From contig NZ_CABFVH010000004.1 of assembly GCF_902141855.1 (NCBI RefSeq), forward strand, positions 1-64,000: a stretch of DNA of 64,000 nucleotides, written 5' to 3'. This document shows positions 30,205-35,814 of this stretch, in pieces. Source of the stretch: Methylobacterium dankookense (lineage in GTDB: Bacteria; Pseudomonadota; Alphaproteobacteria; Rhizobiales; Beijerinckiaceae). The position numbers were made by a program, and so were the translations under genes. Position 1 is the stretch's first letter. Every line of letters starts with the position of its first letter. Below the pieces are notes generated by a model that saw nothing but the letters and a program-made list of their open reading frames with translations, was not told the origin of the DNA and did not search any database.

Positions 30205-31617
30205 TCAGAGCGAGTAGTACTGCACGAACTCGATCGGGTGCGGGGTCATCTCGTAGCGCATCACCTCGGTCATCTTCAGCTCGATGAACGAGTCGATCTG
30301 GTCGTCCGAGAACACGCCGCCGGCCTTGAGGAAGGCGCGGTCCTTGTCGAGGTTCTGCAGGGCCTCGCGCAGCGAGCCGCAGACAGTCGGGATCTTCTTC
30401 AGCTCGCGCGGGGGCAGGTCGTAGAGATCCTTGTCCATGGCCGGGCCGGGATCGATCTTGTTGATGATGCCGTCGAGGCCGGCCATCAGCAGGGCCGAGA
30501 AGGCGAGGTAGGGGTTCGCCATCGGATCGGGGAAGCGGACCTCAACGCGCTTGGCCTTCGGGTTCGTCGTCCACGGGATGCGGCAGGAGGCCGAGCGGTT
30601 GCGGGCCGAGTAGGCCAGCAGCACGGGGGCCTCGTAGCCCGGCACCAGACGCTTGTAGGAGTTGGTCGACGGGTTGGTGAAGGCGTTCAGCGCCTTGGCG
30701 TGCTTGATGATGCCACCGATGTACCAGAGACATTCCTGGCTGAGATCGGCGTACTTGTCGCCCGCGAAGAGCGGCTTGCCGTTCTTCCAGATCGACTGGT
30801 GCACGTGCATGCCCGAGCCGTTGTCGCCGTAGACGGGCTTCGGCATGAAGGTCGCCGACTTGCCGTAGCTCTGCGCCACGTTGTGGATGCAGTACTTGTA
30901 GACCTGCATGTGGTCGGCGAGGAGGGTGAGCGTGTCGAACTTCATGCCGAGCTCGTGCTGGGCAGACGCGACCTCGTGGTGGTGCTTCTCGACCTTCACA
31001 CCCATCGACTGCATGGCGGCCAGCATCTCGCCGCGCATGTCCTGCGCCGAATCCTGCGGCGGTACCGGGAAGTAGCCGCCCTTGGTCTGGACCCGATGGC
31101 CGAGGTTGCCGCCCTCGTAGTCGGTGAAGCCGTTGGTCGGCAACTCGGTGGAGTCGAGCTGGAAGCCGGTATGGTAGGGGTCGGCGCCGAACTTCACGTC
31201 GTCGAAGACGAAGAACTCGGCCTCGGGGCCGACGAAGATCGTGTCACCGATGCCGGTCTGGCGCAGATAGGCCTCGGCGAGCTTGGCGGTCGAGCGCGGG
31301 TCGCGCGAGTAGGGCTGGCCTGTCGAGGGCTCCAGCACGTCGCAGACGATCGACATAGTGGAGGCCGAGAAGAACGGATCCATACAGGCGGTGACCGGGT
31401 CCGGCATCAGCAGCATGTCGGACTCGTTGATCGCCTTCCAGCCAGCGATCGACGAACCGTCGAACATGGTGCCGTCCTGGAAGATCTCGTCGTCGACGAG
31501 CGAGACGTCGAAGGTGACGTGCTGCCATTTGCCCCGCGGGTCCGTGAACCGGAAGTCCACATACTTGACGTCGTTGTCCTTGATCTCCCTCAGGACATCC
31601 GCTGCGGTCTTTGCCAT
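30205..31617 (-). CDS. glnA: Glutamine synthetase, type I
   Basis: A 470-residue GSI that makes glutamine from glutamate, ammonia and ATP as a dodecamer. Motifs: FDGSSIAGW, the metal-ligand region [20 protein letters not shown] and the ATP-site segment starting [13 protein letters not shown]. The adenylylation tyrosine is present in [11 protein letters not shown], so the enzyme should be controlled by GlnE. It follows glnB on the same strand with a 305-bp gap, the standard alphaproteobacterial order. GlnD for the upstream signal is at 2.1-4.9 kb. Confidence 0.97.
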
Positions 31618-31922: not shown

Positions 31923-32300
<378 letters not shown>

Positions 32301-32472: not shown

Positions 32473-33996
32473 ATGATAGGTGCGCGGCTGCTGACGGTCG
32501 AGGCAATGCGGCGGGTGGATGCGGCGGCAATCGCGGCCGGGACGCCCGGCCTCACGCTGATGGAGCGGGCTGGAGCCGCGGTGGCCGCGCGCGCCCGCGT
32601 GCTGCTCACCGAAGGCGGGCGGGAGGGGGGCTCCGTCCTCGTCCTGTGCGGGCCCGGCAACAATGGCGGCGACGGCTTCGTGGCCGCGCGCCATCTCGCG
32701 AAGGCGGGCTTCGCCGTGGAGGTGGTCCTGCTGGGGCGCCGCGACGGGCTCTCCGGGGATGCGGCCGGTGCCGCCGCAGCCTGGGCCGGGCGGGTGCGCG
32801 AGGGTGCGCCGGACGTGCTGCCGCCCTGCGGTCTCGTGATCGACGCCCTGTTCGGGGCCGGCCTCTCGCGCGACCTCGATGGCGAGGCACGCGCCCTGGT
32901 CGAGCGGGTGAACGCCTCCCGCCTCCCCGTCCTTGCCGTCGACGTGCCAAGCGGGCTCGACGGCGATACCGGCGCGGTGCGCGGCGTCGCGATCCAGGCC
33001 GCCGAGACGGTGACCTTCGTCGCGCTCAAGCCCGGCCACCTGCTCCAGCCGGGCCGGAGTCTGTGCGGTGCCCTGCACTGTGCCGATATCGGCACCGGTG
33101 CGGCGGCGCTCTCCGCCGGGCTGGCAGGCTGCCCCGCGCTCTTCCGCAACGGGCCAGAACTCTGGGGGGCGGGCTTCCCGCACCTGACGGGGGAGAGCCA
33201 CAAATACACGCGCGGCCACGCCCTAGTGTTGTCGGGGCCGGCTTGGCGCACCGGCGCAGCCCGGCTCGCTGCCCGCGGGGCGCTGAGGGTGGGCGCCGGA
33301 CTCGTCACTGTGGCCTCGCCCGCCGACGCGCTGGCCGAGAACGCCGCGCAGCTCACCGCGATCATGCTGCGCCCTTGCGAGAGCGCCGACGACCTCGACG
33401 ACCTCCTCACCGACGAGCGCCTGAATGCGGTGCTGCTCGGCCCCGGCCTTGGCAGCGGCGAGCCGACCCAGGAGCGTGTGATGGTGGCGGCCTCCGCGGG
33501 CCGCGCCCTCGTCCTCGACGCGGACGCGCTGACGAGCTTCAAGGGTCAGGCCGCGACGCTGGCCGGCTACATTCGGGATGGGGAGGCGCGGGCTGTGGTC
33601 ACCCCGCATGCGGGCGAGTTCGCCCGGCTCTTCGCCGGGACCGATGCGGTTGAGGAGGGGCTCGGCAAGGTCGAGCGGGCGCGCCGTGCCGCCGCGCTCA
33701 GCGGCGCCGTGGTGGTGCTCAAGGGGGCCGATACCGTGGTCGCGGATCCCGACGGGCGCGTCGCGATCAACGACCACGCAACGCCCTGGCTCGGCACGGC
33801 GGGGGCGGGAGACGTGCTCGGCGGCCTGATCGCGGGGCTGCTTGCGCAGGGCATGGCGCCGTTCGAGGCTGCCTGCGCCGGCGTGTGGCTCCACGGCGAT
33901 GCCGGCCTGCGCCACGGGCCGGGACTCATTGCCGAGGACATCCCGGAGCTGATGCCGCAGGTGCTCGCCGAGCTGCTGTCTCGCCTGGGGCGGTGA
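32473..33996 (+). CDS. nnrD: Bifunctional NAD(P)HX epimerase/dehydratase
   Basis: A 507-residue fusion that repairs hydrated NADH/NADPH. The N-terminal YjeF epimerase domain has LTVEAMRRVDAAAI and the loop LVLCGPGNNGGDGFVAARHL. The C-terminal ADP-dependent dehydratase domain, of ribokinase-like fold, has KYTRGHALVLSGP, LGPGLGSGEP, VVTPHAGEFARLF and GTAGAGDVLGGLIAG. Length and order match the fused bacterial form (Nnr). Start ATG 32473 is in a divergent arrangement with glnB and converges on the oxidase-like gene with 4 bp between stops. Confidence 0.95.
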   Translation: MIGARLLTVEAMRRVDAAAIAAGTPGLTLMERAGAAVAARARVLLTEGGREGGSVLVLCGPGNNGGDGFVAARHLAKAGFAVEVVLLGRRDGLSGDAAGAAAAWAGRVREGAPDVLPPCGLVIDALFGAGLSRDLDGEARALVERVNASRLPVLAVDVPSGLDGDTGAVRGVAIQAAETVTFVALKPGHLLQPGRSLCGALHCADIGTGAAALSAGLAGCPALFRNGPELWGAGFPHLTGESHKYTRGHALVLSGPAWRTGAARLAARGALRVGAGLVTVASPADALAENAAQLTAIMLRPCESADDLDDLLTDERLNAVLLGPGLGSGEPTQERVMVAASAGRALVLDADALTSFKGQAATLAGYIRDGEARAVVTPHAGEFARLFAGTDAVEEGLGKVERARRAAALSGAVVVLKGADTVVADPDGRVAINDHATPWLGTAGAGDVLGGLIAGLLAQGMAPFEAACAGVWLHGDAGLRHGPGLIAEDIPELMPQVLAELLSRLGR

Positions 33997-34000
33997 TCGC

Positions 34001-35575
34001 TCAGGTGACCTCGAAGCAGGTCCACAGGCCCGTGTCGAAGCGCTCCAGCACCGTGGCGCTGATCAGCCAGCGCCCGGGATTGTCAGCGAGGAAGGCGATG
34101 CGGGCGGTGCGGCCCTCGAGGAGCTGGAAGGTGTCGAGCCAGTAAGGCTCCCAGCCGTCGTCGAGCGGGTGGAGCAGGCGGAAGACATGGCCGTGCAGGT
34201 GCAGGCCCTGTGGGAAGGCAGTATCGTTGCGTAACGCCAGCACCACCACCTGCCCGCGCTTCACCGAGAAGATCGGCGCGAGGCCCACCGTGCCGCTCGC
34301 CCCGTTCACCGACCAGACCTTGGCCGGGTCGCCCGTGAAGACCGGCTCCGCCGGCGGTTTGTCCTTCGGTGTGTCCTTGGCCGCATCCTTCGGCGCCACG
34401 GCCCCGCCGGTGATGATCACATCCCGTCGCATCGCGTTCTGGAGCTTGATCTCGGCCGGGAGCAGCTTGTTCTCGCCGATCGGGGCGATCGGGCCGCGCT
34501 TCTCGGAGACGGGCTCGCCCTTGGTGACGACGCTCGCCAACGCAAGGCCCTGGCCGATCAGCGCGCTGATCGACCCCTTGGCGCCTGGCTCTGGGGGCAG
34601 GTCGACCAGGAGATCGTAGCGCGTGCCCGGCGGGAAGGGCAGGGTGGCGCGCAGCGGTTCGAACGTGTCCGTCGGCTGCCCGTCCACGGCGGCGACGTAG
34701 ACTTTCAGGCCTTCGAAGCGGATGCGGGTGCCTCGGGCGTTGCAAGCGTTGGCAAGGCGTACGCGTATGCGCGAGCCCGGGCGCGCCTCGAAGCCGTCGG
34801 GGACCGGGCGGCCGTTGACGGTGACGAGGTTGCCGAGGCGGCCGTTCGAGGCGGCGAAGAGCGTCTGCCCGAACGGCATCAGGCTCGCGTCGGCCTCGAG
34901 GCGCCAGTCCTGCACGAGGAGCGCCACGTCGGCATCGACCGCGGGCGGCGCCTTCTCCTCCACGATGAGCATCCCCGCGAGGCCCCGGCCCGAGGGCTCG
35001 CTCGACCCGCCGACCACGAGGGGGCGCACCAGGAAGGTGCCGGCATCGGGGGGCGTGAAGGCGTAGGTGAAGTCGGCGCCTGGCGCGATCGGCGCCTGGG
35101 TGACGCCGCCGACGCCGTCCATGGCGTTGCGGTTGCGCACCCCGTGCCAGTGCAGCGAGAGCGGCTTGTCGGTGCGGTTCTCGACCCGCACGCGCAGCTC
35201 CTCGCCGAGCTTGATCCGCAGCACCGGCGGCGCGGCCTTGCCGTCGAAGCACCACGACGCGGTCTCGGCGGCCGGCTCCTCGCGCAGGCGGAGCTTGCCC
35301 GGCCCGGCGACGAGGGGGCGGGCCGGCGCCTTGGGCGCCGCCTCCGGCTTCGGGGCGTCGGCCTTGGGGGCGTCGGGCTTGGGGGCGTCCTTCGCGGCGG
35401 GCTTAGCCGCCTGCGCCAGCGCGCCGCCCGGCAGCAGGCCGAGCGCGGCCGCCCCGCCGAGCAGGGCGCGGCGCGTCGGCACCCCCGCGGGCCCCCCCTC
35501 GACGGATGGCGGCGCGTCGCAAGGTGGCGTCTGGCAAGGTGACACGGTGCGAGGCGGCATCTGGCGAGGCGGCAT
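34001..35575 (-). CDS. Multicopper-oxidase-fold protein lacking most copper ligands
   Basis: A 524-residue exported protein. A twin-arginine signal (PTRRALLGG, then a hydrophobic core to ALAQA) and a Lys/Pro/Ala-rich linker precede three cupredoxin domains. The first copper motif, HWHG (142-145), is present. The second HxH is replaced by Arg-Pro-Leu at 184-186 (GTFLVRPL). The third keeps HLHGH (459-463) but has Gln in place of the first His. The fourth, normally HCHxxxH, reads SATVLER (506-512), removing the type 1 cysteine and both flanking histidines. Oxidase activity is therefore unlikely; it may be a structural relative, as FtsP/SufI is. ATG 35575 lies in imperfect GC-rich repeats, so the true start could be later, before PTRRALL. 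Confidence 0.85.
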
Positions 35576-35729: not shown

Positions 35730-35814
35730 GCGGGCGTGGCGGAACTGGTAGACGCGCTGGATTTAGGTTCCAGTGTCGCAAGACGTGGGGGTTCGAGCCC
35801 CTCCGCCCGCACCA
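35730..35814 (+). tRNA. tRNA-Leu (anticodon TAG)
   Basis: An 85-nt class II tRNA. The acceptor stem GCGGGCG pairs with CGCCCGC. The anticodon stem CTGGA/TCCAG has loop TTTAGGT, so the anticodon is TAG. A long variable arm (GTGTCGCAAGACGT) follows, typical of leucine tRNAs, and the T arm is GGTTCGAGCCC. CCA is encoded at 35812-35814. It lies 164 bp upstream of tig. Confidence 0.96.

Follow-up and report, generated by a model that had tools for sequence, protein, structure and literature searches.

The window, that is the whole stretch of 64,000 nucleotides from Methylobacterium dankookense analysed here, encodes a multicopper-oxidase-like protein that has no ligand of a type 1 (T1) copper site left, and this protein belongs to a clade of degenerate oxidases which share a sequence element of their own. 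With moderate confidence we read it as an exported pseudo-oxidase: a laccase-like ancestor would have lost one histidine, His 508, a single time, its T1 site would have gone piecemeal, and the protein would have been kept for another role.

Domains and copper-ligand motifs of the window protein

The coding sequence (34001..35575, minus strand), identified from the list of open reading frames and Pfam, has 524 codons as listed, its true start being uncertain. The domains Cu-oxidase_3, Cu-oxidase and Cu-oxidase_2 are all present with scores above cut-off (PF07732 111.3, PF07731 71.4 and PF00394 33 bits), which places the protein in the multicopper oxidase superfamily by its fold. With the models for CueO (101.7 bits, cut-off 525) and CopA (94.4 bits, cut-off 478.95) it stays below threshold. 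In its own genome neither a second match to PF07732 or PF07731 in the profile search nor a further match to the window protein itself was found.

The N-terminus carries a Tat-type signal, T34-R35-R36-ALL...ALAQA (35411..35476, minus strand), predicted from the conservation of the twin arginines, R35 being present in 112 of 112 and R36 in 111 of 112 aligned sequences, and each of them in 98% of the 106 proteins encoded in the chromosomal slot described below. The motif TRRALL makes the window protein a predicted Tat substrate. Between signal and first domain lies a linker rich in Ala, Pro and Lys (residues 56-87; 35315..35410, minus strand), in which a short 15-bp tandem repeat is seen.

The first-pass annotation had read motif 2 as RPL, a Gln at the head of motif 3 and SATVLER in place of motif 4, and both the translated reading frame and the alignment bear this out. 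Motif 1 is kept as H142-W-H144, followed by G, and provides a T2 and a T3 ligand position (35144..35152; this and the following motifs are on the minus strand). The former motif 2, HxH, is now R184-P-L186, so that both T3 histidines are gone (35018..35026). Motif 3 reads Q456-G-L-H459-L-H461-G-H463 (34187..34210), with Q456 in place of the T1 His and with H459 (T2) and H461 (T3) retained. The former motif 4, HCHxxxH, has become S506-A507-T508-VLE-R512 (34040..34060), with loss of the T1 Cys, the T1 His and two T3 His. Following the usual assignment we take H142 and H459 to be the two T2 ligands. First-sphere ligands left in the window protein are thus four out of eleven (H142, H144, H459 and H461), all of them trinuclear. 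The His/Cys/His set of the T1 site, as required in a functional laccase, is completely gone (Q456, A507, R512), and of the eight trinuclear histidines of a functional multicopper oxidase four are kept. The earlier description of a fold stripped of its T1 site is therefore correct; its stress was on T1, but the trinuclear site too is down to half of its ligands. All 26 intact homologues that were checked possess 11 of 11 ligands, including His at both positions of motif 2.

A single clade of degenerate oxidases

Homologues were sought with the window protein and with profiles, and a chosen subset was read as stretches of 3-17 kb. For a first tree 152 sequences were aligned and 135 kept; those dropped had a low score, a domain of less than 330 residues or an identical domain. 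This tree splits into 26 intact sequences (11/11 ligands each) and 109 degenerate ones with an SH-aLRT value of 99. Between one and eight of the eleven ligands are kept in the degenerate proteins, and each of the 109 lacks at least one T1 ligand, so that orthologues with intact motifs, which would have pointed to recent decay, did not turn up. Displacement of the ligands to other conserved Cys or Met residues, the other outcome named beforehand as fatal to the idea, was not seen either: among the 106 slot members conservation stays below 85% in every column of Cys or Met, and the only His columns of at least 85% outside the ligand set are H463 and H469.

A larger tree of 176 sequences left out 18 of the 135 sequences of the first tree and 8 of 27 class-wide ones, all close to sequences that were kept, and intact status was here defined by an HCH within the last 50 residues. 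In this tree 100 degenerate sequences form one clade (SH-aLRT 98) and the 75 HCH-bearing sequences another (SH-aLRT 93). In the unrooted tree all 101 degenerate sequences are found on one side of a branch (SH-aLRT 93). The one outside the clade, L309, is a second degenerate oxidase (L309:4229-5602) with LHWYGIR, FWLSP, DQPLHIHGH and WGIQSTIAER at the motifs; it lies on a long branch between the degenerate and the intact clade, lacks DDxWxP, shows no slot genes in its 6.5 kb locus and possibly represents an independent loss of ligands.

The clade spans five family-level groups (f1, f20, f36, f50 and f52). Among 119 genomes of the family, 85 are represented in the trees by a full-length clade member, one more (G462) encodes the identical domain of another member (L109), two (G459, G520) carry a partial gene, and in 31, whose weaker matches were only partly read, no clade member was seen. 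Two genomes harbour two clade members each (G466 with L171 and L193, G434 with L181 and L228), possibly by duplication or by a mixed assembly. Order-wide, 206 of 397 genomes match at E 1e-85, and the stretches read were chosen by score and family. Class-wide, 76 of 385 genomes match at E 1e-60; 30 of these loci were read, and the 27 from outside the order have all motifs intact. Confinement of the clade to the order would thus be a finding of this sample.

Chromosomal position

Most of the degenerate proteins are encoded in one chromosomal slot between a divergent tRNA-Leu/tig-clpP block and a convergent nnr-glnB-glnA block. In the window this slot is flanked on one side by an nnr-like gene for an NAD(P)HX epimerase/dehydratase (32473..33996, plus strand), which converges on the oxidase-like gene, by glnB for the PII protein (31923..32261, minus strand) and by glnA for glutamine synthetase (30205..31617, minus strand), and on the other side by a divergent tRNA-Leu gene with the anticodon tag (35730..35814, plus strand), downstream of which tig, clpP, clpX and lon follow. 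The names of these neighbours (nnr, glnB, glnA, tig, clpP, clpX, lon) are presumptive and were given by sequence. The ends of the converging nnr-like and oxidase-like genes (33996-34001) are only 4 bases apart.

If any match to a flank gene in the locus is counted as slot membership, 104 of the 109 degenerate sequences have one. The five without are L109, L181, L187, L192 and L228, the last of which lies at the end of a contig of only 3 kb. The 13 kb locus of L109, from Enterovirga rhinocerotis, is free of matches to tig, nnr, glnB, glnA and clpP, and this clade member has apparently been relocated. Two intact oxidases (L305:3690-5582 and L306:3756-5420), both from a single genus in a different family of the order, lie beside tRNA-Leu (tag), tig and clpP in the same orientation as in the slot, while their other neighbour is a cysteine-synthase-like gene in place of nnr. 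These two related genomes suggest that the ancestor was in the slot while still intact; among the remaining intact relatives close to the clade whose loci were read, no flank of the tRNA-Leu/tig type was seen. None of the slot genes showed a functional link to the oxidase-like protein.

How the copper sites were lost

The ligands were followed through 99 clade sequences (L228, which ends with its contig, and L309 are not counted), and the numbers of changes were taken from the clade tree together with four intact sequences. His 508, the second His of HCH, which we take to be a T3 ligand on the bridge from T1 to the cluster, is present in none of the 99, for which a single change on the tree suffices, so that the clade can have been founded by its loss. 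The T1 ligands behave differently: His 456 is kept in 7 of the 99 sequences (5 changes), Cys 507 in 12 (7 changes) and His 512 in 24 (6 changes). From this uneven retention we infer that the T1 site was taken apart step by step; it is whole in no sequence read. Loss of the T1 site in one step is ruled out by the 12 sequences with the Cys and by eight that keep two of the three T1 ligands. In L209, L211, L220 and L221 (and also in L258 and L261) the two ligands kept include the Cys, and these proteins are possible intermediates of T1 loss.

The residual histidines are labile as well. All four of them (H142, H144, H459, H461) are present in 43 of the 99 clade sequences, and the independent events on the clade tree that bear on a joint loss of residual His pairs are few. 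At the former T3 position 184 and the former T1 position 512, Arg is the commonest residue among the slot members (74/106 and 59/106, respectively).

Within Methylobacterium the picture is uniform. In the window protein and 77 named sequences of the Methylobacterium group, a near sample drawn from the 80 closest of 266 relatives, R184, L186, Q456 and R512 are each found in 78 of 78 cases, and position 507 is Ala in 56, Ser in 22 and Cys in none. Because the same substitutions occur in 78 of 78 sequences, as against 11 of 11 ligands in all 26 intact homologues, chance is excluded, and the T1 loss common to the whole genus sample rules out recent decay in one strain. The survey of orthologues that had been proposed to see whether the substitutions are fixed thus gives a divided answer: they are fixed in Methylobacterium, where the T1 ligands are absent throughout, but vary outside the genus, where the T1 Cys survives in the dozen clade members mentioned above. 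Of the residual histidines, H142, H459 and H461 are present in 78 and H144 in 77 of the 78 sequences. This near-invariance suggests that they are in use in Methylobacterium, and we count it against the pseudo-oxidase reading.

The family of the window gene is under purifying selection. Over 2443 pairs with dS between 0.1 and 0.7, which are not independent of one another, the dN/dS ratio (pairwise Nei-Gojobori, residues 90-524) has a median of 0.33 and a maximum of 0.56.

A new conserved element and the predicted structure

Shortly behind motif 3 the window protein has the sequence R466-LLHPL-D472-D473-G-W475-E-P477 (34145..34180, minus strand), which was recognised by its conservation in the clade: R466, D472, D473 and P477 are found in 99 of 99 sequences and W475 in 98. 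Written as R.L...DD.[WY].P, the pattern occurs in 98 of the 101 degenerate sequences of the larger tree and in 0 of the 75 intact ones. The exceptions are L228, cut by its contig end, L309, and L241, which is on a long branch and in which the residues align with other spacing. Judged from the alignment, it is this element and not the metal ligands that the clade conserves best. Among intact laccase-like oxidases of the order, all eleven ligands are kept in 26 of 26 checked, and the element is missing from all 75.

A structure predicted from an alignment of 63 sequences consists of three cupredoxin domains (pLDDT 70.9, pTM 0.75; an earlier model from 23 sequences reached a pLDDT of 66.1), and the part of the model that holds the element has a pLDDT below 50. 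The closest solved fold according to VIA-align is Lac15 (4f7k_B; Z 31.5, rmsd 3.2, 346 aligned residues, 30% identity), and it is intact relatives that surround the clade in the tree. Foldseek ranks 6vow first.

Proposed origin and function

A laccase-like multicopper oxidase, perhaps already beside tRNA-Leu and tig, would have been the ancestor. The second His of HCH would have been lost once at the base of the clade, the T1 ligands would have followed piecemeal, and the protein would have been retained for another role. In the classical cycle the substrate gives electrons to T1, from where they are transferred to the cluster for the four-electron reduction of O2. As the T1 site is incomplete and H508 missing in every member sampled, this cycle should be impossible in the clade. 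Instead, a putative surface around the DDxWxP loop probably binds a periplasmic partner or ligand, and R184 and R512 at former T3 and T1 positions may replace the lost charge of the metal. In the Methylobacteriaceae some loose binding of iron or copper by the four remaining histidines may persist, and across the clade the metal would be residual or optional. That metal is optional is favoured by the contrast between the residual histidines, kept together in fewer than half of the clade sequences, and the invariant element. A comparable fate is known from the coagulation factors V and VIII, which have the oxidase fold, have lost most copper ligands and keep metal for structure; they are eukaryotic proteins of unrelated function.

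Melac13220 and a possible non-blue oxidase

One relative of the window protein has been published. Melac13220 from Methylobacterium extorquens (WP_147019975.1, 50 kDa) was described as an "Fe2+ activated non-blue laccase" (PMC9456135). Among 111 genomes of the genus, three contain an exact match to the 18 gene-specific bases of the forward primer, one match each, and all are located at the start codon of orthologues of the window gene (477, 479 and 485 aa). An exact match to the reverse primer is absent from the 111 genomes, but it shows 1-3 mismatches to the ends of the same three genes, two of which encode SFEVS-stop like the primer. A similar fit of the primers is found in named Methylorubrum loci. 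Going by these primers, Melac13220 is very probably an orthologue of the window protein.

The purified protein is colourless, without a band at 610 nm or a shoulder at 330 nm, and EPR silent; it contained 0.71 Cu and 2.33 Fe per molecule and bound Fe2+ in ITC with N = 1.81 and K = 3.18e7 per M (PMC9456135). It is reported to oxidise ABTS with a kcat of 14.6 per s, which rises five-fold to 74.5 with Fe2+, and also 2,6-DMP (PMC9456135). The authors state that it contains a T1 site; a term search of the text of PMC9456135 finds none of the words histidine, cysteine, motif and alignment, and in the accessible part of that paper we found no analysis of the clade, the slot or the motifs. Melac13220 has been published as a laccase with T1 copper, whereas the T1 ligands are absent in the close relatives that were read. 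Their absence would account in a simple way for the lack of colour and of an EPR signal, and the T1 site assumed for Melac13220 is probably absent. Iron or copper held loosely by the residual histidines would explain why it is colourless and rich in iron. The suggestion of the first-pass annotation that the window protein may be a partial metal binder gains from this very probable orthologue, in which about 0.7 Cu and 2.3 Fe were measured and T1 gave no signal in the published spectra (PMC9456135). Its statement that the protein is no normal oxidase is right as far as the classical blue mechanism goes; for Melac13220, however, oxidation of ABTS is reported (PMC9456135).

The chief rival of the pseudo-oxidase reading is a non-blue metallo-oxidase, in which iron, with some copper, on the four histidines and perhaps on new acidic ligands would replace the copper cluster and oxidise small substrates without T1. 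The metal content of Melac13220, its Fe2+ binding and its activation by Fe2+ (PMC9456135) speak for it, as do the primers that fit the ends of the orthologues and the four histidines that are near-invariant in Methylobacterium; the reported oxidation of ABTS and 2,6-DMP counts against a mere binding protein. However, all four histidines are kept in only 43 of the 99 clade sequences, the T1 site was assumed in PMC9456135 and no ligand mutants were found in the part of it that was accessible, and the ABTS assay was run at pH 1.5 with free Fe2+ added. Moreover, the construct (pET-28a, NdeI/BamHI) included the signal sequence, the cells were grown with 1 mM CuSO4 (PMC9456135), and judging from the vector the protein probably carries a His tag. 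Part of the metal and of the activity could thus stem from copper-fed overexpression, from the probable tag and from a reaction of ABTS assisted by iron at pH 1.5. On balance we regard a non-blue metallo-oxidase as possible and our pseudo-oxidase reading as clearly the better of the two. A particular form of metal swap, in which H463, H469, D472 and D473 together with the residual histidines would build a new Fe2+ or mixed site, seems doubtful to us; if it were true, the protein would be a periplasmic iron-binding protein or an iron-dependent oxidase on the scaffold of a copper oxidase.

Relation to FtsP

SufI/FtsP of E. coli resembles the window protein in its three-cupredoxin fold, the absence of a copper site, its export as a Tat substrate and its descent from oxidases (PMC2661564). 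As SufI keeps 2 of 12 ligands, shows no copper in its structure and is, in the view preferred by the authors, a scaffold of the septal ring (PMC2661564), the clade might by analogy consist of metal-free structural proteins, for example stabilisers of division or of the envelope. The model matches SufI (2uxv) with Z 24.5, and the drift of the ligands across the clade would fit such a role as well. An orthologue of FtsP is ruled out: the window protein reaches 35.8 bits with the NCBIfam equivalog model of FtsP, NF008135 (cut-off 581), and in a tree with CueO and FtsP of E. coli, FtsP groups with CueO at 99 (by a quick tree method and with FtsP on a long branch), while 28 sampled degenerate sequences form one clade (SH-aLRT 100) that adjoins the intact L112, L113, L114 and L305 (join 88). 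E. coli FtsP, on its separate branch with CueO, also lacks RxLxxxDDxWxP. The clade lies among intact alphaproteobacterial oxidases, apart from E. coli FtsP, and the proposal of the first-pass annotation, a distinct Tat-exported lineage in analogy to FtsP, is supported by this topology, the failure of the FtsP model and the conserved twin arginines. A shared function is another matter, because no division gene is found among the slot neighbours read and Melac13220, very probably an orthologue, contains metal, and we think it unlikely. That the gene is decaying and heading for loss in the window strain, as the missing ligands and the 31 of 119 family genomes in which no clade member was seen (weaker matches there being partly read) might suggest, is highly improbable in view of the open frame, the median dN/dS of 0.33, the genus-wide T1 loss and the invariant clade element.

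Significance

In a literature search based mostly on titles and the openings of abstracts, a bacterial family with the oxidase fold that is kept without copper was found only for FtsP, and nothing on the present clade apart from Melac13220. Within this search no description of the lineage, its slot, the loss of ligands or the element was found; the protein itself has a published relative. If the pseudo-oxidase reading is right, this would be a second copper-free family with the oxidase fold, and one that can be traced from intact relatives via one founding loss to a new invariant element. It would also offer an explanation from sequence for a published "white laccase", which matters for work on dye degradation and for the naming of genes by their fold alone. 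The clade lets one put the question whether an oxidase fold without T1 copper may still turn over substrate, and with which metal.
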